Assembly (NCBI RefSeq): GCF_001942305.1
Contig: NZ_MKKE01000010.1
Span: 1-64,000 of the forward strand
DNA from: Saccharomonospora sp. CUA-673
GTDB taxonomy: Bacteria > Actinomycetota > Actinomycetes > Mycobacteriales > Pseudonocardiaceae
Length of the DNA: 64,000 nucleotides
Direction: 5' to 3'
Shown here: positions 34,392-64,000 of the stretch, piece after piece
Numbering within the stretch: position 1 is the stretch's first letter
Layout of the letters: every line of letters begins with the position of its first letter
The notes under the pieces: model-generated
Told to the model about the DNA's origin: nothing
The model's database searches: none
What the model saw: the letters and a program-made list of their open reading frames with translations, nothing else
Made by a program: the position numbers and the translations under genes

Positions 34392-34426
34392 GCCTCTCCC
34401 GAGTCGTCCCGCTTCACTCATTGTAA

Positions 34427-34441
34427 TGAAAGTCGTTTTCA
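34427..34441. promoter_or_regulatory. Zur-like box between aztA and aztB
   Basis: TGAAAGTCGTTTTCA is a 7-1-7 dyad with intact outer TGAAA/TTTCA halves, three central mismatches from the Streptomyces Zur box TGAAAATGATTTTCA. It lies 4 bp before the aztB ATG and 36 bp from the aztA ATG, suited to repress both directions in the presence of zinc. Confidence 0.65.
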
Positions 34442-34445
34442 CCTT

Positions 34446-47049: not shown

Positions 47050-47370
47050 TTACGAACGGACGAGGCGGGCGATGGCGTCGTTGGCTTCCTTGATCTTCGC
47101 CTCGGCCTCGGCGCCGCCCTCGGCGGCGGCGCGCATGAGGCAGTGCCGCATGTGCTCGTCGAGCAGGCCCAGCGAGACCGAGTGCAGCGCCTTCGTGACG
47201 GCCGAGACCTGCTGGAGGATGTCGATGCAGTACTGCTCCTCCTCGACCATCCGTTGCAGGCCGCGGGTCTGGCCCTCGATCCGGCGCAGCCGCTTGAGGT
47301 AGTCGTCCTTGCGGTGGATGTAGCCGTGCTCGGAGGCGTTCTCGGTGTTGCCAGTGTTCTCGGCGTCCAT
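47050..47370 (-). CDS. csoR: CsoR-family copper-sensing repressor
   Basis: 106 residues. The copper ligands of CsoR are in register: Cys48 (EEQYCID), His73 and Cys77 (DEHMRHC), i.e. C-x24-H-x3-C. The RLRRIEGQTRGLQRMVEEE helix binds DNA. Cu(I) binding releases the repressor. The N-terminal ~20 residues (TGNTENASEH) are extra. It lies 40 bp downstream of the RiPP exporter genes on the same strand, with its own promoter/operator overlapping the exporter stop codon. Confidence 0.93.
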   Translation of the reverse strand: MDAENTGNTENASEHGYIHRKDDYLKRLRRIEGQTRGLQRMVEEEQYCIDILQQVSAVTKALHSVSLGLLDEHMRHCLMRAAAEGGAEAEAKIKEANDAIARLVRS

Positions 47371-47407: not shown

Positions 47408-47424
47408 AGTCTACCCGGGTGTAG
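47408..47424 (-). promoter_or_regulatory. CsoR-type operator overlapping the csoR -10
   Basis: On the minus strand TAGACT (complement of 47408-47413) is a good -10, and it overlaps the pseudopalindrome CTACACCCGGGTAG (47411-47424), similar to CsoR sites with C/G-rich halves flanked by TA. This suggests autoregulation. The stop of the upstream ABC gene lies within it. Confidence 0.45.
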
Positions 47425-49130
47425 TGGTCGCGGTGTCCGTCCCGAGGTCGATCCGCCGGTCGAGTCGGCCGAGGGTCTGCGGGCGGTGGGAGGCGACCAG
47501 GGCGGTACCGGGGAAGTCGGCGATGACCTCGGAGACGGCGCGTTCGGTGTCGGGGTCGAGGTTGGCGGTGACCTCGTCGACGAGCAGGATGCGGGGCCGT
47601 CGTACGAGGCCCGGGCCAGGCAGAGGCGTGCCTGCTGTCCGCCGGAGAGTCGCAGTCCGTTCTGGCCGAGTTCGTCGTCGAGGCCGATCCAGTGGGCGGC
47701 GCCCACCCGGTGCAGGGTCGTCGACAGCTCCTCGTCGGTCGGTCCGTCGGCCGTCCCCTCTGTGCCGAGCAGCAGGTTGTCGCGGACGGTTCCGTGGAAC
47801 AGGGTCGCGTCCTGGTCGACGACGGCGACCGCCTGCCGGAGCTCGGCATCGTCGATCCGGTGGAGCGCCGCGGCGACCCCGTCGCGGCTGACGAGTTCGA
47901 TGGTGCCCGACGACGGATCCCACAGGCGCGCCGCGAGGGCGACCACGGTGCTCTTCCCGGAGCCGGAGGGGCCGGCCATACCGACGTGCTCGCCGGCGGC
48001 GATCTCGGCCGACCAGCGCGACACCGTCGGCGGCCGGTCCTCGTAGGAGAAGGACACGTCGCGGAATCGCAGGCCGAGCGGCCCGTCGGGAATCGGCTGG
48101 GGAGCGTCCGGTGCGGTGACCACCGGTGGTCGGTCGACGCCGTCGACGACCCGCTGGGCACTGGCGACCAGCGGATGCAGCTGGGTGACGGTGGCGGTCG
48201 CGTCCGTCACGGCCGAGATGCCCGCGAGCGCCAGTGCGACGAGCGCCGGCAGGAGTGCCGGGGACAGGCGCGGTTCGGCGGCCTCGGACGTCGCGCCGTG
48301 GGACAGCAGGCCGAGGGCGAACGCGCTGGTGGTGATCATGCCGATGACCACCGCCGTGACGATGACCTCCCGCACGGCGGTGACCAGTTGGGTCAGCAGC
48401 TCACGGCGCCGCGCGACGGACGTGATCCGGGCCGTGGCCTCGACGGTGTCGGCGACGACGCGTGCCGCGAGACCGTAGGCCAGGACCTCCCGCAGCGCAC
48501 CGAGCGCGTCGACGATGCGCACCGACAGCCAGGAGCGCCGCCGTTGCTCGGCGCGCCCAGCCTGCGGGTGGCCCGGGCCCCGAGGAGCGCGCTCGCCGCG
48601 ACCAGCACGCTGCCCGCGAGCAGCACGGCGCCGGCTTCGGGAAGGACGGCGAACGCGGTGACCAGGCAGGTCACCAGCACTGTGAGGGAGGCGCCGAGCT
48701 GGGCGAGGGTGTGGGCGTAGAAGAACTCGAGTTTCTCGATGTCGTCCATCGCCACGCCGGCGGCGTGGCCGGAATGCTCCCGTCGCTTGCCGGGGACGCT
48801 GCGGGCGTAGGAGTCGAACAGCGCCATCCGCATGCGGGCCAGCACCCGGTAGGCCAGGGAGTGCGAGACGTCCATCTCCTGCCACGTCAGTACCGTCCGC
48901 AGTACCACGAGACCGGCCACGGCGAACCACCACGGCGGCCCGGGCAGGGCGCGCTCCACGACGGCGTGACCGACGGCCCAGGCGGTGAGGACCGACAACG
49001 CCGCCAGGGCCAGCGCGCTGACGGTCCCGACGAGGTAGCTGCCGACCATGCCCCGCCATTCGGGACGCAGCACCGGCAGCAGGGCGCGGAACGCGCGCGG
49101 GGACGGGGCCGGGGCATCGGTGGTGGTCAC
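47411..49130 (-). CDS. ABC half-transporter 2 of the RiPP cluster (two one-base breaks)
   Basis: About 573 residues. N-terminal six-helix exporter domain (VGSYLVGTVSALALAALSVL; PWWFAVAGLVVLRTVLTW) and C-terminal ATPase with Walker A GPSGSGKSTVVALAARLWD, signature LSGGQQARLCLARA (QQ form) and Walker B ILLVDEVTANLD. Breaks at ~48551 (RRLGA then RAEQRRRSWLSVRI) and ~47594 (YDGP then RILLVDEVTANL), both one missing base. It overlaps the stop of half-transporter 1. CydC-like in sequence style, but the operon context makes it a peptide exporter subunit. Confidence 0.85.
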
Positions 49131-50796
49131 CGCACACCCCCGTCGGGGCTGCGCGTGTCGGCGGCTCCGGAGCCCAGGCGCACGACGTCCCCCACAGCGG
49201 CGAGGGTCTCGGGTCGATGGCTGATCATGAGCACGATGCGTTCGGCGGCGACGCGGTGGAGCGTGGCGACCACGTCGGCGGCGCGGTCGGGATCGAGCGC
49301 GCTCGTCGGTTCGTCCACGAGCAGCACGGGTCTGCGGGCCAACAGCGCGCGAGCCAACGCGAGTCGTTGCCGTTGACCGCCGGACAGGCTCGCGCCGGCC
49401 TCGGTGACCTCCGTGTCGAAGCCGTGGGGGAACGCGCGGATCTCGTCGAGGACGCCGGCCGCGTGGGTGGCGGCGGTGAGGTCGGACTCGGTCACCGGTC
49501 CGGCGACCGTGAGGTTGTCGCGAACGGTTCCGGCGAACAGCACCGGCCGTTGGGACACCACCGCGACGTCCTCCCTGCGCAGGGGGCGACCGTCCAGCTC
49601 GATCGTGCCGGCATCCGGGGTGAGGAATCCGAGCAGGAGGTCGAACAGGGTCGACTTGCCCGCCCCGGAGGGGCCGACGACCGCGGTCAGCGCGCCTCGG
49701 CGGGCCGTGAGGTGGAAGTCGTCGAGCACCGGTTCCGCGGCGTCCGGGTACCGGAAGCACAGGTCGGTCACGTGCAGCCGGTCCGCCTGCACCGCTGTCG
49801 GCGCGGGGTGTACGTCGGCCACCGGTGCGGACGGTTGCCGGTCGGGCCGCCCGGCGAAGGCTCCGAGTCGCGTCAGACCGGGGATCGCGGTGAGCCCGAG
49901 GAATCCCGCATGCCAGTGCCGGGACAGTTCCCGGATCGGCCGGAACGCCTCGGACGCGAGCAGCAGGATGAGATACACCTCCATGGCAGGCGGTTGACCG
50001 GTGACGGCGTGGGTGAGTGCGGTCATGGCCGCGGCGACGATTCCGGCCTGGATGGCGAGGTCCGTCACGCCCGTCTCGGCCAACGAGACCCGCATGATCC
50101 GCTCGGTCGCGCGCCGCAGGCCCTCGGAGCGGGCGTGCAGTCGTCTGCGGGTGGCGGGGACGGCGCCGAGCGTGCGCAGGGTGGACATGCCGCGGAGGGA
50201 TTCGAGCAGGTCGGCGCTGAGCGCCTCGTAGCTGTCCCAGTGGTCGAGTCCGCGGCGGGCCATCATCCGCTTCCACGCCAATGGGCCGGCCAGGGCACCT
50301 GCGACCCCGAGCCCCACGAACAGGCCCGCCCAGGGCGACAACACCGTCGCCGCGAGGACCACCGGTGGGCAGCCGAGCGCGACCTGGGCGACGACGGGAA
50401 TGTACTTCGACACGTAGCGTCGGTGCCGTCGATGCCGTCGCCGAGCGTCGCCCGCATCGATCCGTCCCGCACGGTGGTGTCGTGCAGGCGCTCGGGGACC
50501 AGCGCGGCGTGCATCGCCCTGCGGCGAACGGCCTCGCGTACGCGTCCGCCCAGGCGGGTCGCCGCGGACGTGTGCGCCAGCGACAGGACCAACCGTGCCA
50601 GCGCGATGCCGATGATGACCCCGAGTGCCGTGAGGACGTCCGCCGATTGTCCACTCAGGACCGCGGACACGGCCCACGCGATCGCGACGGCCTGGGCCAC
50701 GTAGGTGGCGAACACGAGCACGGCCAGGACGACACTCCACGCCAGGGCGGTGGGAAATCGGGATGCTTCGCGCCACAGCGCGCGCACGATCATCAT
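49127..50796 (-). CDS. ABC half-transporter 1 of the RiPP cluster (one one-base break)
   Basis: About 556 residues. Exporter-type membrane domain (ALAWSVVLAVLVFATYVAQA; GLFVGLGVAGALAGPLAWKR) plus ATPase with Walker A VGPSGAGKSTLFDLLLG, signature SLSGGQRQRLALARALL, Walker B VLLVDEPTSALDPD and the switch His in MISHRPETL. The frame changes at ~50420: GIDGTDA then RYVSKYIPVVAQVALG. It probably forms a heterodimer with the next gene. ATG 50796 overlaps the dehydrogenase stop. Confidence 0.85.
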
Positions 50797-51878
50797 GGGG
50801 CGTCCGTCTCCTCCCCGGCTGCGTTGCCGGGCAGCATCGCGAGCGCATGGGTGATCCACCGGCTGTTGCGGGCGGGGATCCCCGAGACCGGCCGGCTCCG
50901 CCAGCGGCCCGACGCCGCACCCCGGTAGCACAGTGCCGCCGCCTGGCGATGCGCCTGCCACAGGCTCTCGGCGAGTTCGTGCGCCGGAGCCTGGGTGGAC
51001 ACCGACCACGTCTCGACGCGCGCCGCCCCGCGGACCCACGTCTGTCCGGACAGTCGGGCCACCTCGGCGGCGCGCGGATCCGCCGGTCGGTGGCCCGCCG
51101 CGGCGAACTCGGCGAGCGCCGGGGAGCGCCGTGCGGCCAGGGCCCGAGCGCGGTGGGCGTCGACCGTCCACTGCGGAGGGAGGTCGACGGCCGCCAGCGG
51201 TATCTCGGGGGCGAGCCCGCTGCCGAGCCACTCGTCGGCGGCGGCCGCTCGCGGAACGTCGAGCAGGGCGCGCAGCCACGCCGCGGGACCGGTGGACACG
51301 GCAGGCCGTTCGGGGAGCAGGAACTCCAACGCCGTGACCGCATACGCGACGTCGGCGATCCACAGTGGCCACGCGCGGTGGCGGTAGCGACCGACACTGC
51401 GTCCGGGTTGGACGGTCAGCACCATCGTGAGGGCGGCGGGCCCGGCGGCTTCCCACGCAGTGGGCGGGTCGGGGGACCGGCGCCGCAGCAGCTGCCCGTG
51501 CTCGTGGTCGAAGACGTACCGGCCAGGCCCGAGCTCGCCGAGCTCCCCGTGTTCGGCGAGGCCTGCGGGTCCGACGACGAGATGGGTGTGCACGGGGTAG
51601 GTCGCCCCGGCCGACGGCACCGGTCGTTGCCGGATGCGGGTGGCGGTTCCGTCGGGGAGCCGGTGGTAGCCGGGGCTGCGCCAGAGTCCGTCGAGCAGGT
51701 GCCGCAGACGCTCGGGGACGGCGTCGCCGGCGACCGGCACGGCACCGGCCCGGTGCCAGGGATTGACGCGGGGCCCGGGCGGCACGGGCGGTCCGGGGAC
51801 CTCCGGGGTCAGTGCGCGCGCGAGGGCAGCGGGCAGGGTCGTCGCGGGTGTCGTCGTGGGTGTTGTCGTGTCGGTCAC
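50793..51878 (-). CDS. SagB/ThcOx-type azoline dehydrogenase
   Basis: 361 residues, nitroreductase-fold flavoprotein. The FMN-binding signature RPVPSAGATYPVHTHLVV is at residues ~85-102, as in SagB/McbC enzymes that oxidise azolines to azoles. VFDHEHGQLLRR and SAVTALEFLL-like VAYAVTALEFLLPERP are also typical. It lies 6 bp after the YcaO gene stop, in the same operon, so oxidised rings (oxazoles) are expected in the product. Substrate and ring number cannot be read from the sequence. Confidence 0.85.
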   Translation of the reverse strand: MTDTTTPTTTPATTLPAALARALTPEVPGPPVPPGPRVNPWHRAGAVPVAGDAVPERLRHLLDGLWRSPGYHRLPDGTATRIRQRPVPSAGATYPVHTHLVVGPAGLAEHGELGELGPGRYVFDHEHGQLLRRRSPDPPTAWEAAGPAALTMVLTVQPGRSVGRYRHRAWPLWIADVAYAVTALEFLLPERPAVSTGPAAWLRALLDVPRAAAADEWLGSGLAPEIPLAAVDLPPQWTVDAHRARALAARRSPALAEFAAAGHRPADPRAAEVARLSGQTWVRGAARVETWSVSTQAPAHELAESLWQAHRQAAALCYRGAASGRWRSRPVSGIPARNSRWITHALAMLPGNAAGEETDAP

Positions 51879-51884
51879 GGTGGC

Positions 51885-53345
51885 CTACATGTGCGGGGGA
51901 GGGACGAGGGTGACCGAGTCCGGTCCGCCGTCCCAGGCGGTGCGCCAGCCGCGGTCGTGGGCGGCGCGTGTGAAGCGGTCCATGCCGAGGTAGGCGAAGG
52001 CCGCCGGGGCGTTGGGGACGAGGCCGGGCACGATGGTCCGGACCACGCGGAGTGGCGTGCGGCGGATGTCGTCGGTCGTCAGGTCACGGGTGATGACGCG
52101 ATGTCCGTGGGTGTGCAGCCGGCGGTACACCTCGTCCATCGTCACCGGGGCCAGGTCGGTGATCGGCCGGATTCCCTGCGCGGGCGCGGTGAAACGGCGC
52201 GCCTCGGCGTGGACGCGGGGATCGAGCCAGACCTGGACGTGGGCACCGAGGTCCACGACGTGCTCGCAGTGGCGGCCCGCGGCGTCGAGATACCGGGCGT
52301 CCTCGCGGAAGTCGAGGTACAGCCCCTTCGCCATCAGACCCTGGTCGACGGCGCGGAACACCCACCCGTCGGAGCTCGTGCAGCCCTGGGTGTAGATCCA
52401 GGTGTGCACGGCCTCCAGTACCGCCTTGCGGGCGGCGCGGACCGGGTCCAGTGCCGCGGAGAAACCCGCCGCGTACAGGTCGCGGTCCCGGTCGTGGAGG
52501 AGGGCCGCCACCGCGGGAGCGAACTCCGACGGCATGACCACCAACGACACGGTCAGGCCGCTGCCGGCGAGGTCGTCGGCCAGTCCGGGAACGCTCGCGG
52601 GGTCGATGCCGACGGTGGGCCCGTCGAGGTGCCACCAGACCTCGAGTGCGTCCCGTTCGACGACCTCGAGGACCCCGCGGTCGCGGGCGTCGTCGATACC
52701 TTGCCCGGTGGCGATTCCCGCGTAGTTGAGGTGATGGATGCGTGGCAGTGCCCGGAAGCGGGACTGCCGCCAGTTCAGGTACACCAGCGAGGCCGGAACC
52801 CACACATCGCGACCGGACGTGTCCTCCGCGCTCGGCGTGCCCAGAATCTCGTGCGGGTGCTGGTCGCGGCAACGGGCCCAGAGCGTGCGTGTGTCCTCGG
52901 TGAACCGTTCGTACGGGAAGGATTCCCGGCCGTACTGCCACGGCGCGAACACCGGCAGCGCGTCGAGCGCGATGGGGGAGAGTCCGTCGTCGACCAGCTG
53001 GGTCCTCGTGGCGATGCGCAACTCCTCGGCGGGCAGCTGCGCGGGCAGCCAGTTGCCGCAGTACCGTTCCACGCCTTCGGCGATCGCCGCGATCCGCGCC
53101 TGGGCGGCATCGCCGAATGACGTGCCGAGCGACACCCTGTCTGCGGGCCACTCGCCCAGCTGCCGGGTGTCCGAGACGGCGGCGGTCATGGCGAGGTAAC
53201 CCGCGGGTGCGCCGGCCGGGTGCGGAACCCGCCGGACGGACCGGATGACGCCGCATTCGGGATCCACCAAGGTCTCCACAGGCAGGTCCGGACGCTCGTG
53301 GCCGGAACCCGGCGTGTGGCCGTCGGTGGTGTCGGTGACGGTCAT
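51885..53345 (-). CDS. YcaO-family cyclodehydratase
   Basis: 486 residues. ATP-binding motifs of the family are clear: SFGDAAQARIAAIAEGVERY (about residues 78-97), GQGIDDARDRGVLEVVERDA (about 205-224) and GFSAALDPVRAARKAVLEAV. The enzyme converts Ser/Thr/Cys of a precursor to azolines using ATP. The C-terminus ends VTLVPPPHM, not in the PxPxP of canonical azole cyclodehydratases. It is joined to the hydrolase gene by a 4-bp overlap. An amide-thioamide or amidine product is the alternative chemistry for YcaO, but the SagB-type partner favours azoles. Confidence 0.92.
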   Translation of the reverse strand: MTVTDTTDGHTPGSGHERPDLPVETLVDPECGVIRSVRRVPHPAGAPAGYLAMTAAVSDTRQLGEWPADRVSLGTSFGDAAQARIAAIAEGVERYCGNWLPAQLPAEELRIATRTQLVDDGLSPIALDALPVFAPWQYGRESFPYERFTEDTRTLWARCRDQHPHEILGTPSAEDTSGRDVWVPASLVYLNWRQSRFRALPRIHHLNYAGIATGQGIDDARDRGVLEVVERDALEVWWHLDGPTVGIDPASVPGLADDLAGSGLTVSLVVMPSEFAPAVAALLHDRDRDLYAAGFSAALDPVRAARKAVLEAVHTWIYTQGCTSSDGWVFRAVDQGLMAKGLYLDFREDARYLDAAGRHCEHVVDLGAHVQVWLDPRVHAEARRFTAPAQGIRPITDLAPVTMDEVYRRLHTHGHRVITRDLTTDDIRRTPLRVVRTIVPGLVPNAPAAFAYLGMDRFTRAAHDRGWRTAWDGGPDSVTLVPPPHM

Positions 53346-54337
53346 GGTGCGGTCCCTTCGTGACGCCACGTCCCGGTTGCGGGATCGAACGCCGAGCGAG
53401 TGCGGTGCGTGTGGCTGAGGATCTCCGTCCATGGGGCGGCCGTTCCCGGCAGGCCGTGCGCCGCCAGCCAGGCCTCGATGACGCCGCCCACCCCGCCCGC
53501 CGTGCGCAGCAGCTGCCGCAGTCGCGGATCGGTGATGTCCCCGGCGAGGTGGTGACCCCAGGGGCCGGTGGCGACGTGACTCGCGCCGGGCCAGGTGCGT
53601 GCGAGCCGCCGGGCGTGGCCGTCGAAGAAGTCGTGCTGGCCACTGATCACCAGCAACGGGACATCGATGTCGTACCGCGCGGCGACGTCGATCGGCGGCG
53701 CGGCCCACAGTCGTCGCCATTGCGTCAGCACGCGCGGGCTCCAGCCCCACCGGGTCGCGGCCTCGACGACGCCGGAGGTCTCGGCCTCGGCGGTGCGCCG
53801 GGCGAGCTCGGCGTCCGGCAACGGGTGCTGGGCCAGTCGCGTGCGGCCGTGCTCGTGCCACCAGCCGATGCGATTGCGGAGCTGGGCACGCCCTTCGTGG
53901 TCGTATGCGGTCTCCGCGAGGCCGAGGGCCGGTACCGCGACGACGAGCGCCGTGACCGACTCGGGTTCGGCGCGTGCGGCCTCCAGGGCGGTGTGAGCCG
54001 CGTAGGACGCGCCGTACAGGACGATCGGCACGCCCGGATGTGCCTGGTGCAGGTGCCGGAGGACCGCGCCGCCGTCGTCCTCCTCGTGTTCGTAGGGGAC
54101 CCATGCCCCGTCCGAGGCGTAACGTCCGCGGACGTCCTGAACCAGACAGTGGTACCCGCGCAACGTCCAGGATCGGGCGGTCGCGGCGTGCTGCCGTGCG
54201 TCGTAGGGGGTCCGGATGACGACCAGGCCCGCCGGCGCTGCGGATTCCCAGAACAGTCCCCGAAGTTCGGTGCCGTCGGGCATCCGGCAGGCGTGTTCTC
54301 GTCGCTGCCGTGGTGCGGTCCCGGTGGCCGCCGTCAC
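53342..54337 (-). CDS. Alpha/beta-hydrolase, CocE/NonD type
   Basis: 331 residues. X-Pro dipeptidyl-peptidase (S15)-like fold: VVIRTPYDARQHAATARSW and YHCLVQDVRGRYASDGAWVP, with the nucleophile in VLYGASYAAHTALEAA, the Asp near VISGQHDFFDGHARRL and the His in THRTRS or GPWGHHLAG. It could cut or trim the modified peptide or act as an esterase. The role in the pathway is inferred from the overlapping genes on both sides. Confidence 0.82.
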   Translation of the reverse strand: MTAATGTAPRQRREHACRMPDGTELRGLFWESAAPAGLVVIRTPYDARQHAATARSWTLRGYHCLVQDVRGRYASDGAWVPYEHEEDDGGAVLRHLHQAHPGVPIVLYGASYAAHTALEAARAEPESVTALVVAVPALGLAETAYDHEGRAQLRNRIGWWHEHGRTRLAQHPLPDAELARRTAEAETSGVVEAATRWGWSPRVLTQWRRLWAAPPIDVAARYDIDVPLLVISGQHDFFDGHARRLARTWPGASHVATGPWGHHLAGDITDPRLRQLLRTAGGVGGVIEAWLAAHGLPGTAAPWTEILSHTHRTRSAFDPATGTWRHEGTAP

Positions 54338-55263
54338 GGCCGGTCCACCGGTTCGTCGGGGACGTGCGGCGGCGCGTAGCCGAGGACCGGGTGTTCACTG
54401 ACCACGCCCGTGGCAGGCACGAATTTCCACAACGTGCGCCGGTATACGTCCACCGTTGCGGTGTCGCCTGCGGTGGCTTCCCGGTCCTGGGCCCAGGCGA
54501 GGGCCACGGTGAGGATGCGTCCGACGGTGAGCATGCGTGCGCCGGACGACATGGGTCGGGTCTCGACGGTCGCGTGCTGCCACGTGCGCAACGGTCCCGG
54601 GACGAGTGCGGCTGCCAGGCGCCGCCGCCGGACCTGCTCGCTGCCGGGGTCGGCGGGCGTGACGCAGAGCGGGTCGACGAAGCAGTTCTCCCCGTCGCGA
54701 TAGGCCCGCAGCCACGCGATGCCCGCGTTCGGAAGGGTGTCCAGGCGGGGCCAGTCGGCTCGTTCGGCGGGTGAGTCGCCGTAGGCGATCACCAGGTGCG
54801 CTGCGTGCGTACCGGGCTCGGCCCCCTCCTGAAGTACGGAGTCGGTGGTGCGGCGTCGCGGGTGCACGTCCCACTCGTCCAGCGCCTCGGCGACGTCGTC
54901 GAGGACTCGGCCGGATCCCACGAGGGTCACCGTCCGCCGGGCGGCGGGCCACCGGCGCCGGGCATCCGCGGCCTCGCGGGAGGACATCTCCGCGCGCAGT
55001 GCGGCCACGTATTCCTCGTCGGGCGCAGCGGGTGCCGCAGGGCGGGTGCTCTCGCCGGTCAGGATCCGCGTCAGGTCCGGCGGAGGTGACTGCAGGCGCA
55101 GGAATCGGCCCGCGGCCGTGCGGACGACCGCGGTGCCGTCGGCGTCGGTCACCACGTGCGCGCCCGTGCCGGGCACCGGGGCGACGAGCGGTTCGGACCA
55201 CGTGGCGTCGGCAGATGCGGAGGGTTCCGGTTGCGGCCGGCTGGTGGCGGATTCCGGGAGCAT
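54334..55263 (-). CDS. TOMM leader-peptide-binding E1-like protein
   Basis: 309 residues. The N-terminal ~85 residues (HVVTDADGTAVVRTAAGRFL) look like a PqqD-type RiPP recognition element. The centre is a Rossmann-like ThiF/E1 domain (RRTVTLVGSGRVLDDVAEAL, about residues 108-127), without the CxxC zinc pairs of true E1 enzymes. Such proteins present the precursor to YcaO. Start ATG 55263. It lies 76 bp after the precursor gene, beyond a hairpin. Family assignment is by architecture and context. Confidence 0.75.
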   Translation of the reverse strand: MLPESATSRPQPEPSASADATWSEPLVAPVPGTGAHVVTDADGTAVVRTAAGRFLRLQSPPPDLTRILTGESTRPAAPAAPDEEYVAALRAEMSSREAADARRRWPAARRTVTLVGSGRVLDDVAEALDEWDVHPRRRTTDSVLQEGAEPGTHAAHLVIAYGDSPAERADWPRLDTLPNAGIAWLRAYRDGENCFVDPLCVTPADPGSEQVRRRRLAAALVPGPLRTWQHATVETRPMSSGARMLTVGRILTVALAWAQDREATAGDTATVDVYRRTLWKFVPATGVVSEHPVLGYAPPHVPDEPVDRP

Positions 55264-55284
55264 GCAGGACCTTTCGGACAGGGC

Positions 55285-55316
55285 CCGGCCGGGCGGCCCG
55301 CAGGCCGCCCGACCGG
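55285..55316 (-). terminator. Hairpin between precursor gene and biosynthetic genes
   Basis: CCGGCCGGGCGGCC (55285-55298) pairs with GGCCGCCCGACCGG (55303-55316) over 14 positions with one mismatch (wobble in the minus-strand RNA) and a 4-nt loop. No T-tract. It is well placed as an attenuator giving more precursor than enzyme transcript, as in many RiPP operons. Confidence 0.65.
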
Positions 55317-55339
55317 AGATGTTCTGCCTGACGACGTGG

Positions 55340-55456
55340 TCAGTCGAACGGGTTCTCGACGAGCGCGTTCGAGTGCGAGGCCGACAGGTGGGCCAGCTGC
55401 TCCGGCTCCTCGATCTCGGCGACGATCTGGTTGTCCTGCACTTCCCGAATGTCCAT
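55340..55456 (-). CDS. RiPP precursor peptide
   Basis: 38 residues from ATG 55456, preceded by AGAGGAG. The first ~22 residues are acidic and helical (MDIREVQDNQIVAEIEEPEQ), typical of a leader. The C-terminal part LAHLSASHSNALVENPFD is the likely core, with Ser25, Ser27 and Ser29 alternating with His23, His28 and Ala, and no Cys or Thr. Three oxazol(in)es at most are possible. It is the first gene of the minus-strand operon and under the Zur-like box. The cleavage site is unknown. An in-frame extension to 55573 is not used because it would cross the operator. Confidence 0.8.
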   Translation of the reverse strand: MDIREVQDNQIVAEIEEPEQLAHLSASHSNALVENPFD

Positions 55457-55535
55457 TATGGACTCCTCTCGATGAGTGACCCGCGCCGACGGGGATGTCG
55501 ACACGTGTTCGCCGGGCGAACGATCAAGACCATAG

Positions 55536-55552
55536 TTGAGAATGGTTTTCAA
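55536..55552. promoter_or_regulatory. Zur-like box in the divergent RiPP/importer promoter
   Basis: TTGAGAATGGTTTTCAA contains TGAGAATGGTTTTCA (55537-55551), two mismatches from the Streptomyces Zur box. It lies 20 bp before ATG 55572 (plus strand) and 81 bp before the precursor ATG (minus strand), so one dimer pair could control both operons. It does not resemble the TTAGGTTAGGC-type iron box of IdeR/DmdR. Confidence 0.7.
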
Positions 55553-55571
55553 TTCTAATAGTGTTCGGAGC

Positions 55572-56800
55572 ATGGATACGCCGCGGCTCGTGGTCGCCGA
55601 CTACCGGGCAGGGCGCGTGTATGGCTGTGCCGCTCGGGGTGCCGAGGGTGGAACCGGTGCGCGTCCGCTCGGTTGCGCCGTGCTTGCCGAGCACGCCGGC
55701 GTGCTCGCCTTGCCGCCGCGGTCCGGCGTTTCGGAAGGGTGGGCGTTCGCCGACGACCGTGGTGGCGCGCTCGTCGTGCACAGGGGCACCGTGGGCGTGG
55801 CCCCGCAGCGGATCCCGGTCGCGATCCCTGCGGAGCACCTCGCCTGCGACCCCACCGGCCGCTACGTCGTGGTCACGACCGGGCTCGGCGCGAACGCCGA
55901 CGTGTGGAGCGACGTCGTCACCGTCGCCGATCTCGATACGGGCGACTCCGTGCGTTTCCGCAGCAGGGTCGGCGAACCCGGGGTCGCTCTCGTGCCCGAC
56001 CAGGGCGACGGCGAACCGGTGATCGTGCTCCGGCACCGCGAACCCGGTGGCATCGAGGCGATCCCGCTCGGTGATGCCCGTGCCGTGGGGTCCCATGTTC
56101 CGGAGCTGCGTGGCCGGGTGTTGACCGACCTCGCCGCGGACGGACACGGCGACGTCGTCTGCCACCGGACCGGGATCGCGGCCACGGCCACGAGTCGGGG
56201 GCTGGAACGTTTCGTGGTCGAGCACGGTGTGCCGCGCGGCATCGGCATCAGCCCGTGGCCGGTGCCCGGCCGGGCGTTCTACCTGCGCTTCGACCCGGCC
56301 ACCGGTCGCGCCGTCGGTGTCGTACGCGGCGGTCCGACGTCGCCGACCGCGTGGACCTCCTGGACGAACCATCTCGTGGACATCGACCTGGCCACCGGTG
56401 ACACGCGATCCGTGGACCTTCCCGGGGGCCTGGCGTTCCGCTTCGCGCTCGGGGGCACGCGGGCCGCGGTCGCCACGATCCACCCGGACGGCGACGAGGT
56501 GACGATCATCGAGCGTTCCGGCGCCGAGCTGCGCCACGTCCATGCAGTCAGCCTGCCGGGGATGTCGCATCCGCCGCGCCCGGGCACCTGCCGTGGGACC
56601 CGGTCGGCGATGCGCCGGCCCAGCGGCGGGCGATCGCCGTCGACCCCACCGGGGAGTTCGTGGCCGTCACGCGGGGCGGGGACGGCGAACTGCACGTGCT
56701 CGGCGACGACGGGTTCCGGACCGTCACCCTGCCCACGGCACTCGACGAGGGCGGTCATCTGTACTGGCCCGGCGGTGCCCTCGACCCGGTCGGCCGGTGA
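55572..56800 (+). CDS. Beta-propeller protein of the importer operon (frame broken by one base)
   Basis: About 409 residues. Repeated beta-strand blades (PRLVVADYRAGRVYGCA, AEHLACDPTGRYVVVTTGLG, ELHVLGDDGFRTVTLPTALD) indicate a seven-bladed propeller similar to the N-terminal part of S9 peptidases, without a catalytic domain. The frame changes at ~56560: VSLPG is followed one base lower by DVASAAPGHLPWDPVG; one G is missing. No signal peptide. It is followed after 3 bp by the S9 peptidase gene, so the two may form a complex or the propeller may bind the modified peptide. Confidence 0.7.
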
Positions 56801-56803
56801 ACC

Positions 56804-58611
56804 GTGACGACAGCACCCGTGCCGGTCGATCCGGCCCTCGACGACGCCCTGTCCAGGTGGGAACACCACGGCAGGCCCGGCCTGCCCGACCGGGGGTTCA
56901 CGCTCGGCAGGCTGCCCGGGCGCTCACGGCGTGGCATCTATCGGGCCGGCAGCGGCGAGGTCGTCCTCGAACCGGACGGGCACATCCTGCGCATGGCGGT
57001 CGCCCCGAACCGCAGGCACATCGCGATCCAGCTGGCCGATCGCGCGGACGAGAGCGCGGTCCTCGCGATCGTCGACGCGGACGCTCCCGCGACGAGTCCC
57101 ATCGGCCGCATCCGGTCCTATTCGGACATCCGGTGCCGGTACGACCCGATGGCATGGGACGCGCGTTCGCACGTCGTGGAACTCATCACCGGTGAGCCGC
57201 GGCGGATCGTCACCCTCGACATCCACAGTGGACAGATCATGGCCACCGAACCGCCCGGTGACGCGGACGCCACGCGGTTGCGGCTGTTCCCGGCCGGACC
57301 GCACGGGCTCGTGGCCGAGACGCGTCCCGTGGCCGACCGGACAGGGGCGGTGACCCGGCTCGTCGACCGCGTCACCGGTTCCCGCATCGCCGCGTTCCGG
57401 GCCGTCGTCAGGGTCCTCGACCTCGGCGCCGACGTGCTCGTCGACGACGGCGCCGCACTCCACGTCGTCGACCCGCGCAGCGGTGTCAACAGGTGGTCCT
57501 GGCAGGACCCCGACGTGACGATCACGTCCCTCACCGTCGCCGACGGACACGTCCACGCCGCCGCCGTGCGTGAGGGCCGCAGCGTGCTCCTGCGGATCGC
57601 CGACGGTCACGTGCTCGACGAACGTCCCGTCGCCGACGGGGGAACGCCGGCGGTGGCGGCCGAGGTGGGTACCGACGGCGGCCGGGTCCACGTGCTCGTC
57701 GAGGCGCCGGCGATGCCGCCGCGGGTCGCGCCCGCCCACGACCTCGGGACCGATCACACCGGCGTTGACGAGAGTGGCGTCGACAACGGCGGGGCGGCGG
57801 TGACCCGGTGGCACACGGTCACCGCCGACGACGGGGCCGGTATCGACGTCGCGATCACCTCCCCGCACGACATCGCCGGGCCGGCGCCGCTGATCCTGAC
57901 CTGCTACGGCGGATTCGGCGTGCCGAACCTGCCGGTGTTCGAACCGACCGTGCCTGCCTGGGCCGAACACGGCGGGCACTACGCCATCGCCCAGGTGCGC
58001 GGCGGCGGTGAGCGCGGCAGGGCGTGGCGGGACGCCGGGCGCGGCAGGAACAAGCGGCGCGGCATCGACGACCTGGCGTGCGTCGCCCGGGGCCTCGTCG
58101 ACGCCGGCTACACGCGGCCGGATCAACTCGTGCTGGCCGGTGCGTCCCACGGCGGTGTGCTGGCGGCCAGTTGCGCCTTCGGTGCACCCGAGCTGTGTGC
58201 CGGCGTCGTCAGCACCGCGGCACCGCTCGACCTGCTCAACCTCGACGCACATCCGCTCGGACGGCGGTGGGTCACCGAGTTCGGCGAGCCGGACGACCCG
58301 CGCGGACTCGACGAACTGCGCCGCATCTCGCCGCTGCACCGGGCACGTGCCCTGCCCGAGGGCGTCGGTCCACCGCGGTTCCTCGGCATCGTGCTGGCCG
58401 ACGACGCCCGGGTGAGTGCCGAGGCACCCACGCCGTCGCCGGCGCTCTGCGGGCCAAGGGCGGCGTCGCCGCCGTGTGGCGCGCCGAGCGCACGGGCCAC
58501 GGCAGCAACCACCTCGACAGCCTGCACCGCCTCGGGGCGACGGTGCTCGGCTTTGCCGCCGACGTCACCGCCCCGGCCCGACCCCGCCCTGCACCCCGAC
58601 CCGCCGTGTAA
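56804..58611 (+). CDS. Prolyl-oligopeptidase-family (S9) peptidase (frame broken by one base)
   Basis: About 602 residues: a propeller over residues ~1-330 and a catalytic domain from ~340 (PLILTCYGGFGVPNLPVFEP). The nucleophile is Ser448 in LAGASHGGVLAA; Asp533/534 is in GIVLADDARV; the His is in ERTGHGSNHL after the frame change. The change lies at ~58426: VSAEA is continued one base lower by THAVAGALRAKGGV, with one C missing. The fold limits substrates to small peptides. Likely to open or degrade the imported or matured RiPP, whose core carries a Pro. Confidence 0.85.
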
Positions 58612-58670
58612 CCCCCACCCACGGCGTCACCCCACCCGCCGTGTCACCGACCCAGAAAGCGCCGACACCG

Positions 58671-59825
58671 ATGCCCCCGGTCCATCACCGACCTCCCGAG
58701 CCGGCCCCCACCCGGCAAGTCCCTCCGTCAGCGGTTCCTCCGACAGCGGTGCCCGTACCTCCCGCTCGGCACCGTCGCCGCGGCGCGCTCGCCGCGGCGA
58801 TCCTGGTGCCCACGTTGAGCGTGGCGCTGGTGGTCGTCCTCGTGGTGTCGGCGAGCGTCGGGACGATCGGCGTCGCGCCGTTGGACAGTTTCAAGATCAT
58901 CCTCGGGCACCTCGTCCCCGGGATGCCGTGGATGTCCGACGGTTCCCTCAGCGTCGTGCAGGACAACGCGGTCTGGCAGTTCCGCCTGCCGCGCAGCCTG
59001 CTCGCCGCGCTGACCGGGGCCGCCCTCGCACTGGCCGGTGCCCTGATGCAGGCCGTGGTCCACAACTCGCTGGCCGAGCCCTACATCCTCGGCGTCTCGG
59101 CCGGTGCGGGCGTGGGCGCCGTGTCGTTCATCGTGCTCGGCATCGGTGTGAGCTCTCTCGGGATCGGGGCGTCGGCGTTCGTCGGCGCGGTGTTCGCCAC
59201 CGCCGCGGTCTACCTCCTGGCCCGCAAGGGCGGCCGGATCGCACCGCAACGGTTGATCCTCGTCGGTGTCGCGTTGGGATCGCTGTTCAGCGCGATCACC
59301 AGCTACCTCACCATCTCGACCGACGCGCAGAACGTGTACAGCATCATGTTCTTCCTGCTGGGCTCGGTGTCGGCGGCGACGATGGACCACCTGCTGCTGC
59401 CCACCGTGGCGCTGTGCGTCGTCGGGCTGCTCGCCGCCCTGCGCGCCAGGGCGCTCAACGCGCTCCTGATCGGCGACGAGGCGGCGGGTTCGCTCGGCGT
59501 CAACGTCAACCGGCTGCGCAGCAGTCTGCTGGTCGCGGCCGCCCTGTTGACCGGGTCCGTCGTCGCCGTGTCCGGTGGAATCGGCTTCGTCGGCCTGATC
59601 GTGCCGCACGTGGCGCGCATCATCGTCGGTTCCGATCACCGCAGGATGCTGCCGGTCGCCGTGCTGGCCGGCGCGGTGTTCCTGGCGACCTGCGATCTGC
59701 TGGCACGCACGCTGGCGGCTCCCGCCGAGATCCCGCTGGGCGTGCTCACCGCCCTCATCGGGGCGCCGTTCTTCCTGTGGTTGCTGCGTCGTGACCGCGC
59801 CGACGGCGTGGGGGTGGGCCGATGA
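58671..59825 (+). CDS. FecCD/BtuC-family ABC permease
   Basis: About 384 residues, ten helices after a Pro-rich cytosolic start. The family segments are WQFRLPRSLLAALTGAALAL, GALMQAVVHNSLAEPYILGV, SAGAGVGAVSFIVLGIGVSS and GIGFVGLIVPHVARIIVGSD. These importers carry siderophores, haem or cobalamin. ATG 58671 is chosen; GTG 58641 is possible. It overlaps the ATPase gene by four bases. Confidence 0.92.
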   Translation: MPPVHHRPPEPAPTRQVPPSAVPPTAVPVPPARHRRRGALAAAILVPTLSVALVVVLVVSASVGTIGVAPLDSFKIILGHLVPGMPWMSDGSLSVVQDNAVWQFRLPRSLLAALTGAALALAGALMQAVVHNSLAEPYILGVSAGAGVGAVSFIVLGIGVSSLGIGASAFVGAVFATAAVYLLARKGGRIAPQRLILVGVALGSLFSAITSYLTISTDAQNVYSIMFFLLGSVSAATMDHLLLPTVALCVVGLLAALRARALNALLIGDEAAGSLGVNVNRLRSSLLVAAALLTGSVVAVSGGIGFVGLIVPHVARIIVGSDHRRMLPVAVLAGAVFLATCDLLARTLAAPAEIPLGVLTALIGAPFFLWLLRRDRADGVGVGR

Positions 59826-60693
59826 GGGTCGTCGTCGAGAACCTCGAGGCCCGCCGCGGGGGACGCCGCGTCGTGACCGACGTCAGCATCACGGTGCCGT
59901 CCGGCACCGTCCTCGGCCTCCTCGGCCCCAACGGCAGCGGCAAGTCGACGTTGCTGCGGGCCGTCGCAGGTCTCGGGCCGCTGTCGGCGGGCGCGTCCAC
60001 TATGACGGGACGTCCGCGGCCGACCTCACCCGCAGGCAGCTCGCGCAACGCGTCGCGGTGATGGCCCAGGAACACAGCGAGGAGTTCGAGATCCCCGTCC
60101 TCGATCTCGTGCTGCTCGGGCGCATCCCGCACGGCCGCGGATTCGGCCGGGACTCCGATGCGGACATCGCACTGGCCTGCGACGCCCTCGTGAGGGTCGG
60201 CGCGGGCCATCTGATCGACCGGGCGTTCTCCGCGCTGTCGGGCGGAGAGCGTCAGCGCGTGCTCTTCGCACGGGCATTGGTCCAGGAGACGCCGGTGCTC
60301 GTCCTCGACGAACCGACCAACCATCTCGACATCGCCCATCAGCTCGAACTGCTCGACCTGATCCGCACCACGGGCAAGACGGTGCTGATCGCGCTGCACG
60401 ACCTGAATCTCGCGGCACATTCCTGCGACGCCGTCGGCGTGCTCGACGACGGACGTCTGGTCGCGCACGGCGCACCCGAGCGGGTCCTCGACTCCGATCT
60501 CATCCGCTCGGTCTTCCGGGTCCGGACCACCGTCGTCGAGCACCCGGACACCCGCCGGTCGCACTTCCTCTTCGACGCTCGCGCGGACGCCGAGCCCGGT
60601 CCGGACGCGCACGCCGGCACAGGGACCGCAGCCGCGCGCAACGCAGATGTCCACGTACCCGAGTCCATCCAGGAAGGGACCACCAACCGATGA
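59822..60693 (+). CDS. Siderophore-type ABC importer ATPase (frame broken by one base)
   Basis: About 290 residues. Walker A LLGPNGSGKSTLLRAVAGL (residues ~34-52), signature SALSGGERQRVLFARALV, Walker B VLVLDEPTNHLDIAHQ and switch His in IALHDLNLAAH. The frame changes at ~59990: GPLSAG is followed one base lower by RVHYDGTSAADLTRRQ; one G is missing. The C-terminal ~45 residues are an Ala/Pro-rich extra tail. Confidence 0.9.
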
Positions 60694-61724
60694 CCACCCG
60701 AGACCGAGTGTCCGCGCCACGTTCCCACCGCCGCTGGCGGACGGCATGCGCGCTGTTCGCCGTCGCACCGCTGGTTCTGACGGCCTGCGGGACCGGCGTG
60801 ACGAACGACCCCGCCACCGAGGAGGCAGGGGACACCGTGACGATCACCAACTGCGGCCGGGACCTGTCGTTCGAGGCCGAACCGGAGCGCATCGTCGGCA
60901 TGATGCCGTCGCAGACCGAACTGCTCCTGCGTCTGGGCGCCGGCGACGCGTTGGCCGGGCAGGCGCAGACCGACACCTCACCGCTGCCCGACGACATCGC
61001 GCAGCAGGCCGCGGACGTGCCGGTGCTCAGCACCGACGCGCCGCCGGCCCGTGAGGATCTGCTCGCCGCCGAACCGGACCTCGTCGTGTCGCCGACGACC
61101 TACGAGTTCACCGCCGAGCAGGGTTTCGCCAGCATCGACCAACTGGCCCAGAACGGGGCCGAGGCGTACGTCGCCACCGGTGGTTGCGCCGAGCGGCGCA
61201 ACAACGCCGAGGTGGACGACGTGTTCACCGACATCGCCAATCTCGGCGAGATCCTGCGGGTCCCCGATGCCGCGGCCGACCTCGAACGCCAGGCGCGGGA
61301 CCGGCTCGAGGCGGTCGAGGCCGGCATCGCCGACCGGCCGCGCCTGTCGGTGGCCCAGGTGTATGTGGAGGGCAACACGCTCGGTGCCATCGGCGCCGGG
61401 GTCGAGGCCGACATCATCGAGAAGGCCGGCGGGGAGAACGTCTTCGACCCCGACGCCCCCGAGTTCGCCGACTTCTTCGCCGCTGAGGTCAATCCGGAGG
61501 AGATCATCAGCCGCAATCCGGATGCCATCGTCTTCGGCACGACCGGGCCCGGGCAGGAGGAGCAGACCCGCAACTACCTGCGCAACACGTTCCCCGACGT
61601 CCCGGCGGTCCAGGAGGACCGGCTGATCGCAGTGCCGCAGAGCGATCTGTACCCGGGAACGCTCGGCAACATCGACGCGGTCGAGACCATCGCCAACCGC
61701 CTGTACCCGGGGTCCGTCGAGTAA
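60690..61724 (+). CDS. Siderophore/cobalamin-type ABC substrate-binding lipoprotein
   Basis: 344 residues. Lipobox LTAC, Cys33. Class III (FhuD/BtuF-like) binding protein: RIVGMMPSQTELLLRLG, LAAEPDLVVSPTTYEF and the C-terminal LYPGTLGNIDAVETIANRLY. It contains two Cys (ITNCGRDLSF and TGGCAERRNN) that may form a disulfide. It is the surface receptor of the importer; the ligand is unknown, and the RiPP product complexed with metal is the attractive candidate. ATG overlaps the ATPase stop. Confidence 0.9.
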   Translation: MTTRDRVSAPRSHRRWRTACALFAVAPLVLTACGTGVTNDPATEEAGDTVTITNCGRDLSFEAEPERIVGMMPSQTELLLRLGAGDALAGQAQTDTSPLPDDIAQQAADVPVLSTDAPPAREDLLAAEPDLVVSPTTYEFTAEQGFASIDQLAQNGAEAYVATGGCAERRNNAEVDDVFTDIANLGEILRVPDAAADLERQARDRLEAVEAGIADRPRLSVAQVYVEGNTLGAIGAGVEADIIEKAGGENVFDPDAPEFADFFAAEVNPEEIISRNPDAIVFGTTGPGQEEQTRNYLRNTFPDVPAVQEDRLIAVPQSDLYPGTLGNIDAVETIANRLYPGSVE

Positions 61725-61793: not shown

Positions 61794-64000
61794 TCAGGCT
61801 GCCACGCGGGGGCCGGTGGCCCTGCCCGTGGCGCCGGCAGCGTCCCTGGTGGCGTCGCCGGCGGCGTCGTTGGCGGCGCGGAATCGGCGGAGCCGCTGGC
61901 TGTTGGACACGACGAACACCGAGGAGAACGCCATCGCGGCGCCGGCGAGCATCGGGTTGAGCAGGCCGGCGGCGGCCAGGGGGAGTGCCGCGACGTTGTA
62001 GGCGAACGCCCAGAACAGGTTCGTCTTGATGGTGCCGAGTGTCTTGCGGGACAACCGGATCGCGTCGGCCGCGGCGCGCAGGTCGCCGCGCACCAGGGTC
62101 AGGTCCGAGGCCTCGATGGCCACGTCGGTGCCCGTGCCCATCGCCAGTCCGAGGTCGGCCTGGGCGAGCGCCGCGGCGTCGTTGACGCCGTCGCCGACCA
62201 TCGCCACCGACTTGCCCTCGGCCTGCAGCCGCTTGACGACCTCGACCTTGTCGGCGGGCAGGACCTCCGCGATCACCGTGTCCGGGCCGGGGTCGATGCC
62301 GACCTGTTCGGCGACCGACGCCGCGACGGCGGCGTTGTCCCCGGTCAGCAGCACCGGCGTCAGGCCGAGCTCGCGCAGTTGGCCGATCGCGTCGGCCGAG
62401 GTCGGCTTGATGGCGTCGGCGACGACGAGCACGCCGCGTGCTTGCCGTCCCAGCCCACGGCCACGGCCGTCTGGCCCTGCGCCGACACCGCGGTCATCGC
62501 GGCCTCGAGTTCGGCGGGCAGCGGCTGCGACCAGTCGGCCAGCAGCTGCGGCCTGCCCACGAGCACGGCCGGGTTCTCGCCGGTCCCGTTCTCGCCGGCT
62601 GCGTTCTCGGACACGATGCCCTGCACGCCGAGGCCCTCGACGTTGGTGAAGTCCTCGACGGCGGGCAGGTCGCCGACCCGTTCGGCCGCGCCCTTCGCGA
62701 TGGCCTGCGCGATCGGGTGCTCGGAGGCGTTCTCGAGCGCACCGGCCAGGCGCAGCACGCGGTCGGGGTCCTCGCCGTCGGCGGCGACGACGTCGACGAG
62801 CGTCATCTGCCCGATCGTGACGGTGCCGGTCTTGTCGAGCACGACCGTGTCGACTCGCCGGGTCGTCTCCAGGACCTCCGGTCCCTTGATGAGGATGCCG
62901 AGCTGCGCCCCGCGGCCGGTGCCGATCATCAACGCCATCGGCGTCGCCAGGCCGAGCGCGCACGGGCAGGCGATGATCAGCACGGCCACCGCCGCGGTGA
63001 ACGCCATCGCCAGTTCGGCGCCGGTGCCGGCCCAGAACCCGAACGACGCGAACGCCAGCACGATCACCAGCGGCACGAACACCCCGGAGATGCGGTCGGC
63101 GAGCCGCTGCGCGGCGGCCTTGCCGTTCTGCGCCTCCTCGACCATCGTCGCCATCTGCGCGAGCTGCGTGTCGGAGCCGACGCGCGTCGCCTCGACCACG
63201 AGCCGGCCGCCGGCGTTGACGGTGGCCCCGACGACCGTGTCGCCGGGGCCGACCTCGACCGGAACCGATTCGCCGGTGACCATCGAGGCGTCCACAGCGG
63301 ACGATCCCTCGACGATGCGGCCGTCGGTGGCGATCTTCTCGCCGGGGCGGACGACGAACCGGTCGCCCACGGCGAGCTGGTCGATGCCGATGCGCTCCTC
63401 GCGCCCGCCGCGCAGGACCGAGACCTCCTTGGCACCCAGTTCCAGCAGTGCGCGCAGGGCGGCGCCCGCGCGGCGCTTCGACCGTGCCTCGAAGTAGCGG
63501 CCGAGCAGGATGAACGTGATGACGCCCGCGCCGACCTCGAGGTAGATGTTGGCGGTGCCGTCGCCGCGGGCGATGGTGAACTCGAAGGGGTGCACCATGC
63601 CCGGGTGGCCGGCGGTGCCGAAGAACAGCGCGTACAGCGACCAGGCGAGCGCGGCGCTGGTGCCCATCGAGATGAGCGTGTCCATCGTCGCCGTGGCGTG
63701 CTTGAGGTTGGTCCACGCGGCCTTGTGGAACGGCAGGCCCGCCCACACGATCACCGGCGCGGCGAGGGTGAGCGACAGCCACTGCCAGTACGTGAACTGC
63801 AGTGCCGGGATCATCGCCATCGCGATCACCGGCACGCTCAGCAGCGCCGAGATGATCACCCGGTTGCGCAGCGCGCGCACGGGCGCGTCCTCGCCGTCGT
63901 CATCGTCGGTCCCCGTGGAGTCCGGGGGCGCCGTGGCGGGCGCCTTCGCGGTGTAGCCGGCCTGTTCGACGGCCTCGATCAGCTCCGCGGGCTGCACGCT
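61794..64000 (-). CDS. Cu(+)-type P1B ATPase, N-terminus outside the window (frame broken by one base)
   Basis: 735 residues are visible. Only the end of an N-terminal metal-binding domain is present ([16 protein letters not shown]). Eight helices with [16 protein letters not shown] carry the CPC copper motif. Other motifs: [10 protein letters not shown], phosphorylation site [22 protein letters not shown] and [13 protein letters not shown]. The frame changes at ~62441: VGWDGK is continued by [16 protein letters not shown]; one base is missing. Cu+ export is the family function; the start and regulation lie beyond 64000. Confidence 0.93.

Follow-up and report, generated by a model that had tools for sequence, protein, structure and literature searches.

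Streptamidine is a ribosomally synthesized and post-translationally modified peptide (RiPP) of Streptomyces albidoflavus J1074, and its ami gene cluster was described in 2021 (PMC8442711; BGC0002115). According to that paper, streptamidine is the peptide HLSATH with a six-membered amidine closed between the amine of His1 and the carbonyl of Leu2; nuclear magnetic resonance (NMR) found Ser3 and Thr5 unmodified and no azole. Deletion of amiB, amiC, amiD, amiE or amiF1-F4 abolishes streptamidine, and deletion of the exporter genes lowers it. Streptamidine-type clusters were reported in over 230 species; on the basis of the Fec-like genes the authors had guessed that a metal is imported, and they left the role unexplained (PMC8442711). 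Here, we describe a cluster of this kind at positions 47,411 to 61,724 of a 64,000-nucleotide stretch of DNA from Saccharomonospora sp. CUA-673 (contig NZ_MKKE01000010.1), to which we refer as the window. In common with the J1074 cluster, it has an HxSAxH core, SNALVENPF, AmiB to AmiE, two ATP-binding cassette (ABC) exporters and a Fec-type importer. In contrast to the J1074 cluster, its importer genes run divergently, together with those for an S9 peptidase and a propeller protein, and number three rather than four, with a single permease gene. A first-pass annotation of this DNA had read the locus as a metal-linked azole peptide system of a form for which it knew no described example; the streptamidine family is such an example.

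Parts of this arrangement are found in other known systems. Coelibactin, unlike a YcaO-modified ribosomal peptide, is of non-ribosomal origin, methanobactin is a copper-linked product of MNIO enzymes, and we know of no importer or Zur loop for klebsazolicin. The coelibactin cluster of Streptomyces coelicolor resembles the window cluster as a Zur-repressed secondary-metabolite cluster for a zincophore, with a Zur palindrome of the same type (PMC5472717). Methanobactin and the captophorins are likewise ribosomal peptide metallophores with modified backbone rings, and the captophorins too are copper systems with MNIO enzymes (PMC13097082); the window system has YcaO and SagB-like enzymes and a predicted link to zinc. 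Klebsazolicin also carries an amidine and azoles and is made by a YcaO enzyme with an E1-like partner and a dehydrogenase, but it is a ribosome inhibitor (PMC8442711).

We consider it likely, with a probability of roughly 60%, that the window cluster, whose two operons diverge from one Zur-type palindrome and are predicted to be derepressed at zinc starvation, produces a small peptide zincophore that is exported and then taken up again. New here are sites of the Zur type, found at the promoter of the precursor and also at importer or propeller genes where these are unlinked; they are strong evidence, at the level of sequence, that the motif-A branch of the family, to which the window precursor belongs, is under Zur. 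The word "Zur" has 0 occurrences in the main text of PMC8442711. No zinc or Zur link to YcaO enzymes or RiPPs was found in a search of the open-access literature in which "streptamidine" was not a search word, so that later work may have reported one. Passages from papers on the Corynebacterium Zur regulon, a TOMM survey, the std-cluster, a metallophore primer and the captophorins contained nothing that matches this system.

The palindrome, TGAGAATGGTTTTCA (55,537 to 55,551), identified by motif scan and by its conservation in relatives, lies between two divergent operons, at a distance of approximately 80 bp from the start of the precursor gene and approximately 20 bp from that of the propeller gene. 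As read in the window, the minus-strand operon encodes, in order, the precursor, an E1-like protein, a hydrolase, a YcaO protein, a SagB-like dehydrogenase and two ABC half-exporters, and the plus-strand operon encodes the propeller, the S9 peptidase, a FecCD-type permease, an ATPase and a substrate-binding lipoprotein. Every one of these genes was found where the first-pass annotation had placed it, and the layout of making, export and import that it had recognized is supported. The AmiA-type precursor (55,340 to 55,456, minus strand; MDIREVQDNQIVAEIEEPEQLAHLSASHSNALVENPFD) has 38 amino acids, with a core predicted to be HLSASH by analogy with HLSATH (PMC8442711) and the C-terminal region SNALVENPFD. 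It scores 65.9 bits against NF040714.1 (streptamidine family RiPP), above the cut-off of 40, and counterparts of amiA, B, C, D, E, T1 and T2 and of a Fec-type importer are all present, as assigned by domain and order. The cluster is thus a member of the streptamidine family as judged from sequence. An undescribed family was considered and rejected, since NCBI gives related precursors the name "streptamidine family RiPP"; a protein search returned 144 relatives, and many among the 120 listed are so named.

The S. coelicolor Zur motif derived from chromatin immunoprecipitation (ChIP) is tGaNNatSatNNtCa (PMC5472717), which has 11 specified positions. For the CUA-673 genome we used a degenerate motif, TGANAAYNRTTNTCA, drawn up after inspection of promoters. 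Across 5.42 Mb, this motif has 2 exact sites and 9 sites with at most 1 mismatch, compared to 1 in a reversed-pattern control. One exact site is the shared ami promoter; the other lies between a CobW GTPase gene and an operon of L28/S14 ribosomal paralogues, with a gene that is S18-like by sequence also nearby. Ribosomal paralogues of the L28/S14 type are a usual zinc-sparing target of Zur. A 1-mismatch site (34,427 to 34,441) heads a run of znuB-type, AztD-like and znuA genes in the znu locus of the window (33,558 to 37,481), which consists of an ABC ATPase gene (minus strand), an ABC-3 (znuB-type) permease gene (plus strand), a frame-broken gene for an AztD-like lipoprotein propeller, and znuA. 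The genome also has a Fur-family gene directly 3' of an ArsR-like gene, the usual setting of zur, and its other two Fur paralogues adjoin genes that read as catalase-type. Iron control was considered and not favoured, as the motif is also present at the zinc-sparing ribosomal genes and the znu run. A further 1-mismatch site lies at the start of a thioredoxin-reductase-like gene (G000:C17:35346). Together with the sites in relatives described below, this makes Zur control of the cluster very likely. Two features by which a zincophore system can be recognized, a Zur-type operator at the promoter and a dedicated exporter and importer linked to the biosynthesis genes, were both found, with the repression itself and the cargo being predictions.

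A YcaO search of genome contigs returned 54 loci, 52 of them at 56-82% identity; the other two (L066 and L067, approximately 35%) were set aside. The 52 loci occur in Prauserella, Nocardiopsis, Streptomonospora, Microbacterium, Streptomyces, Rhodococcus, Arthrobacter and others, and the gene set recurs with them. By tblastn (E 1e-4), matches were found to YcaO in 52 of the 52 loci, the hydrolase in 52, the E1-like protein in 50, ABC1 in 50, ABC2 in 49 and the SagB-like dehydrogenase in 47, and on the import side to the ATPase in 49, the permease and the propeller in 48 each, and the S9 peptidase and the substrate-binding protein (SBP) in 42 each; several misses are contig ends, and some weak ATPase matches may belong to other ABC proteins (L052). 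Six Streptomyces-type loci gave no tblastn match to the SBP or the S9 peptidase, and their importers are weakly similar (permease 31-35%). The precursor was recognized in 49 of the 52 loci, with a near-invariant unit such as QLAHLSA[ST]HSNALVENPF[DE]. In L016, L018 and L020-L027, mostly from Nocardiopsis, one precursor gene holds two tandem leader-core-follower units. Of 392 genomes sampled from one genus, 49 also have the precursor; this genus is probably Streptomyces, as the L205 precursor has the same sequence as the one from S. mesophilus (L046).

Sites matching the S. coelicolor motif were common in the 300 bp 5' of the precursor in the 49 of 52 loci where it was recognized (L017, L051 and L059 had no precursor match and were left out): all 11 positions matched in 18 of 49 promoters, at least 10 in 34 and at least 9 in 46. 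The corresponding numbers among 3226 background windows were 6, 25 and 171; in an AT-richer background, 43 of 687 overlapping windows reached 10 or 11 positions. In the 30 loci from the genus inferred to be Streptomyces, a subset of the 49 found in the 392 genomes that includes L199, for which no start codon was found and the core served as the anchor, 18 were exact, 26 had at most 1 mismatch and 28 at most 2, compared to none of 378 background windows with at most 2. The sites were also found where the genes are unlinked. Measured against the own-genome motif, the site 5' of the permease at unlinked importers had 0-1 mismatches in 7 of 9 loci and 2 mismatches in 2 of 9, and unlinked propeller genes in five Streptomyces-type loci had 0 mismatches in 4 and 2 in 1 (L044 was left out because of its propeller frame). 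As a control, 250 regions upstream of the internal SagB, ABC1, ABC2, hydrolase and YcaO genes had a minimum of 3 mismatches.

Consistent results came from a class-wide sample of 394 members, in which YcaO matches were tiered by E-value and 11-20 kb was fetched per locus. A site with at most 1 mismatch, counted anywhere in the fetched stretch, was present in 13 of 16 loci of the closest tier (14 genomes), 3 of 3 of the second and 13 of 16 of the third, where most precursors were unrecognized. In total, 29 of 35 family loci had such a site, and none of the 21 other YcaO loci did (Fisher p 2e-10). This sample shares some records with the precursor-promoter set. With at most 2 mismatches the numbers by tier were 16, 3 and 15.

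Several points in these comparisons weigh against the reading as a Zur-controlled zincophore. At the looser threshold, 5 of the 21 other YcaO loci also had a site, and the relatives are non-independent samples. One of the three cluster copies in G138 (L137-L139), namely L138, has no site upstream. The precursors of the second type, motif B (GP/VGTNALV-type), lack the two core His and give a mixed picture: an exact upstream site was present in 1 of 5 (L092), and the best matches of the others had 2 (L153 and L155), 3 (L150) and 4 (L154) mismatches, compared to control windows (863 of 450 bp from control loci) with 2 mismatches in 4, 3 in 57 and 4 in 323. In L150, L153 and L154, where the usual site is absent, a palindrome-like TGGAAATGGTTTCCA or CGGAAATGGTTTCCG lies approximately 100 bp before NAL, and these are possibly a variant operator. 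The motif-B locus L092 (G047:C1:1674000-1692000), with its exact Zur-type site upstream, has a repeated core, SALQGPGTNALVTNPFA, two adjoining YcaO genes, and FUR-family, ArsR and ABC-3 permease genes nearby.

Family membership, the gene set, the palindrome and its conservation were read from sequence, and from them we infer the following chain for a zincophore. At low zinc, Zur would leave the palindrome. The E1-like protein and YcaO would modify the precursor, and the hydrolase would expose His1, at which the amidine would form, as in the published chemistry for HLSATH. The SagB-like enzyme would likely oxidize a single ring, formed at the Ser that precedes NALV, to give an oxazole. Secretion by the half-exporters would bring the peptide outside, where imidazoles and ring nitrogens would hold Zn(II), and the lipoprotein, the FecCD-type permease and the ATPase would return the zinc complex. 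The S9 peptidase and the propeller would then free the zinc and pass it on.

The published tests of streptamidine weigh against this chain. The first-pass annotation had held that a product without metal binding would speak against its reading, and such a product is reported in PMC8442711: by liquid chromatography-mass spectrometry, streptamidine bound none of Fe, Co, Cu, Mg, Mn, Ni and Zn(II), seven metals including zinc. Under metal starvation the amiD mutant was like wild type, and substantial amounts of streptamidine are reported from S. albidoflavus with no mention of zinc limitation (PMC8442711). The metal link drawn by that annotation, specifically to zinc, is supported by the conserved Zur-type sites. 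In an alternative reading, the peptide is a zinc-starvation signal under the control of Zur, which cells would secrete and import again to signal within the population or to sense diffusion, and which itself carries no zinc. This explanation fits the Zur sites and the dedicated importer alongside the published lack of metal binding and phenotype. We nevertheless regard it as unlikely, given that importers of the Fec/Btu type usually carry metal chelates or cofactors rather than signal peptides, and that there is no regulator among the eleven genes compared (further genes were not tallied). Deletion of amiF1-F4 stops all compounds of the pathway, as positive feedback by a signal would (PMC8442711). 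A zincophore is the best reading of the Zur evidence, and the zinc-starvation signal is its main rival.

The core changes little across genera. In counts from the 120 of 144 precursor matches listed (P0042 left out), the 29 distinct motif-A units retain His1 in 28 and His6 in 29, and core position 2 varies, a pattern that favours the zincophore reading. The residue before NAL in 44 distinct units of motifs A and B is Ser in 37, Thr in 6 and Cys in 1, and these are residues that YcaO enzymes can cyclize. The single Cys is in a Streptomyces tsukubensis precursor (P0056; HLSASHCNALV), and would give a thiazole. YcaO/SagB peptides are often antimicrobial, and the importer resembles transporters of haem, B12 and siderophores; both are consistent with a Zur-controlled chelator or effector that binds another metal or blocks competitors at zinc shortage, with the importer serving for self-recovery or immunity. 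The near-invariance of the core across genera argues against such an agent. Since streptamidine also has no reported antibacterial or antifungal activity and binds none of the seven metals (PMC8442711), we find this explanation improbable.

The dehydrogenase gene amiE is essential, yet streptamidine carries no oxidized group (PMC8442711). An ion at m/z 414.69, reported in the same paper without assignment, matches the [M+2H]2+ value of 414.691 for HLSATHSN minus 2 H2O and 2 H, that is, with one amidine and one oxazole; considering 8 modification states and 4 charges, this form is the sole AmiA fragment within 0.006 of 414.69. The HLSATHSN assignment is suggestive. It would account for the essential dehydrogenase, and it fits the authors' own option that an oxidized part is cut off (PMC8442711). 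Against it stand the chance that a random ion matches, which is 48% for any AmiA fragment (1.9% for fragments that start at His1, and 0.9% if doubly charged), and the report that the ion appeared irregularly, in some heterologous cultures only and never in S. albidoflavus (PMC8442711). For the window precursor, the HLSASH amidine has a computed [M+H]+ of 633.310.

A tentative extension of the zincophore reading, to which we give well under even odds, is that isolated streptamidine is a spent piece and that the working ligand is HLSA[S/T]H-oxazole-Asn, which would be produced under the control of Zur, take up Zn(II) outside the cell, return through the Fec-type importer and be cleaved within. 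This would account for the lack of metal binding, for a dehydrogenase that is essential in a pathway without an oxidized product, and for the requirement for the importer genes; the published metal-binding negative may concern a truncated product. The azole claim of the first-pass annotation may hold in part: the published product carries an amidine and unmodified Ser and Thr, but one ion fits an amidine and one oxazole. A metallophore in which every core Ser becomes an azole could be argued from the presence of a SagB-type dehydrogenase and the requirement for amiE in production. With unmodified Ser3 and Thr5 and an amidine seen in streptamidine by NMR (PMC8442711), and with 414.69 fitting a single azole, we hold it to be very improbable.

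The proteins of the minus-strand operon bear on the biosynthetic steps of this chain. As the frames of five window genes are broken, domains were assigned mostly from the orthologues in Prauserella flavalba (L014), which are intact. The AmiB-type E1-like protein (54,334 to 55,263, minus strand), the predicted leader-binding partner of YcaO, has an AlphaFold2 model with pLDDT 90, whose best Foldseek matches are McbB, LynD and TruD (E 4e-9 to 8e-7; TM (query) 0.40-0.47). The modelled fold is thus consistent with AmiB, which is recognized by likeness to the E1-like part, or RiPP recognition element (RRE), of TruD; the L014 orthologue matched no NCBIfam family, and no credible Pfam family was found. 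The AmiC-type alpha/beta hydrolase (53,342 to 54,337, minus strand; CocE/NonD, Peptidase_S15, with PF02129 in the L014 orthologue) is the predicted leader peptidase, and amiC is essential in the S. albidoflavus cluster (PMC8442711). The AmiD-type YcaO cyclodehydratase (51,885 to 53,345, minus strand; PF02624, 148 bits) ends in LVPPPHM, is the sole YcaO match in this genome, and has profile matches in the Protein Data Bank (PDB) to MusD, TruD and LynD. The AmiE-type SagB-like dehydrogenase (50,793 to 51,878, minus strand) is highly divergent: TIGR03605 is found in 18 of 25 homologues (best E 5e-13), and the window member (E 0.0076) scores 15.8 bits, far below the curated cut-off of 78.4. Its PDB matches include a putative nitroreductase, CyaGox and a SagB-type domain. 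A SagB-type dehydrogenase beside a cyclodehydratase, as in azole-forming YcaO/SagB peptide clusters, is therefore what the window contains. The two AmiT-type half-exporters, ABC1 (49,127 to 50,796; PF00664 and PF00005 in the L014 orthologue) and ABC2 (47,411 to 49,118), both on the minus strand, were assembled from tblastn pieces.

On the plus strand, the beta-propeller (55,572 to 56,800) is possibly the equivalent of amiX, and no signal peptide was seen in it. Its nearest solved fold is that of the zinc chaperone AztD, which is periplasmic. The AztABCD zinc importer is Zur-controlled (PMC6689063), as predicted for the window cluster. The likeness of the propeller to AztD is in fold only, which counts against the zincophore reading: profile comparison gave 18.6%, an HGDHxHYY-type stretch was not seen in the propeller sequence, and kinship in sequence was not established by comparison. 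The S9 prolyl-oligopeptidase-type peptidase (56,804 to approximately 58,620; PF00326 in the L014 orthologue) has the motifs GxSxGG, DxR and GH, retained in at least 95% of 42 homologues. The first-pass annotation proposed that this peptidase opens the ligand, which it may do, though S9 was not detected in the six Streptomyces-type loci. The importer consists of the FecCD-type permease (approximately 58,668 to 59,825; PF01032 in the L014 orthologue, 88% identity to L014), the ATPase (59,791 to 60,693; FecE/BtuD-like in the L014 orthologue, tblastn pieces) and the Peripla_BP_2 SBP (60,690 to 61,724; PF01497 in the L014 orthologue, 81% identity to L014), which has a lipobox-like LTAC as read from its sequence.

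Six frame changes break 5 of the eleven larger genes: ABC1 (near 50,400), ABC2 (near 48,555 and 47,600), the propeller (near 56,580), the S9 peptidase (near 58,426) and the importer ATPase (near 59,990). The frames of the SBP, permease, E1-like, hydrolase, YcaO and SagB genes are uninterrupted. These breaks, together with the absence of a match to the window YcaO in six same-genus genomes, could indicate that this strain carries the cluster as a decaying relic. However, two unrelated neighbours, a P-type ATPase gene and the AztD-like gene, are frame-broken as well, and in six same-genus genomes the latter gene has a single uninterrupted frame. Because of the two broken neighbours, assembly error is probably the likelier cause. 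The genome is rated 91.6% complete and the fragments of the broken genes retain 67-83% identity to Prauserella, and we think there is little chance that the cluster is decaying. The cluster is flanked by genes for a CsoR-type metal repressor (47,050 to 47,370) and the frame-broken P-type ATPase (61,794 to 63,997), both on the minus strand, an arrangement that looks like insertion into a metal-resistance operon. These two genes were rejected as members of the system, as the L014 relative has different genes at its ends.

The zinc-scavenging role predicted here is close to the metal role that was tested and not found in PMC8442711. The Zur-type sites point to zinc starvation as the condition for growth, extraction and phenotyping, and suggest a larger, oxidized product. 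If this reading is true, the streptamidine family would provide a zinc counterpart of the copper RiPP metallophores, from a different enzyme class.

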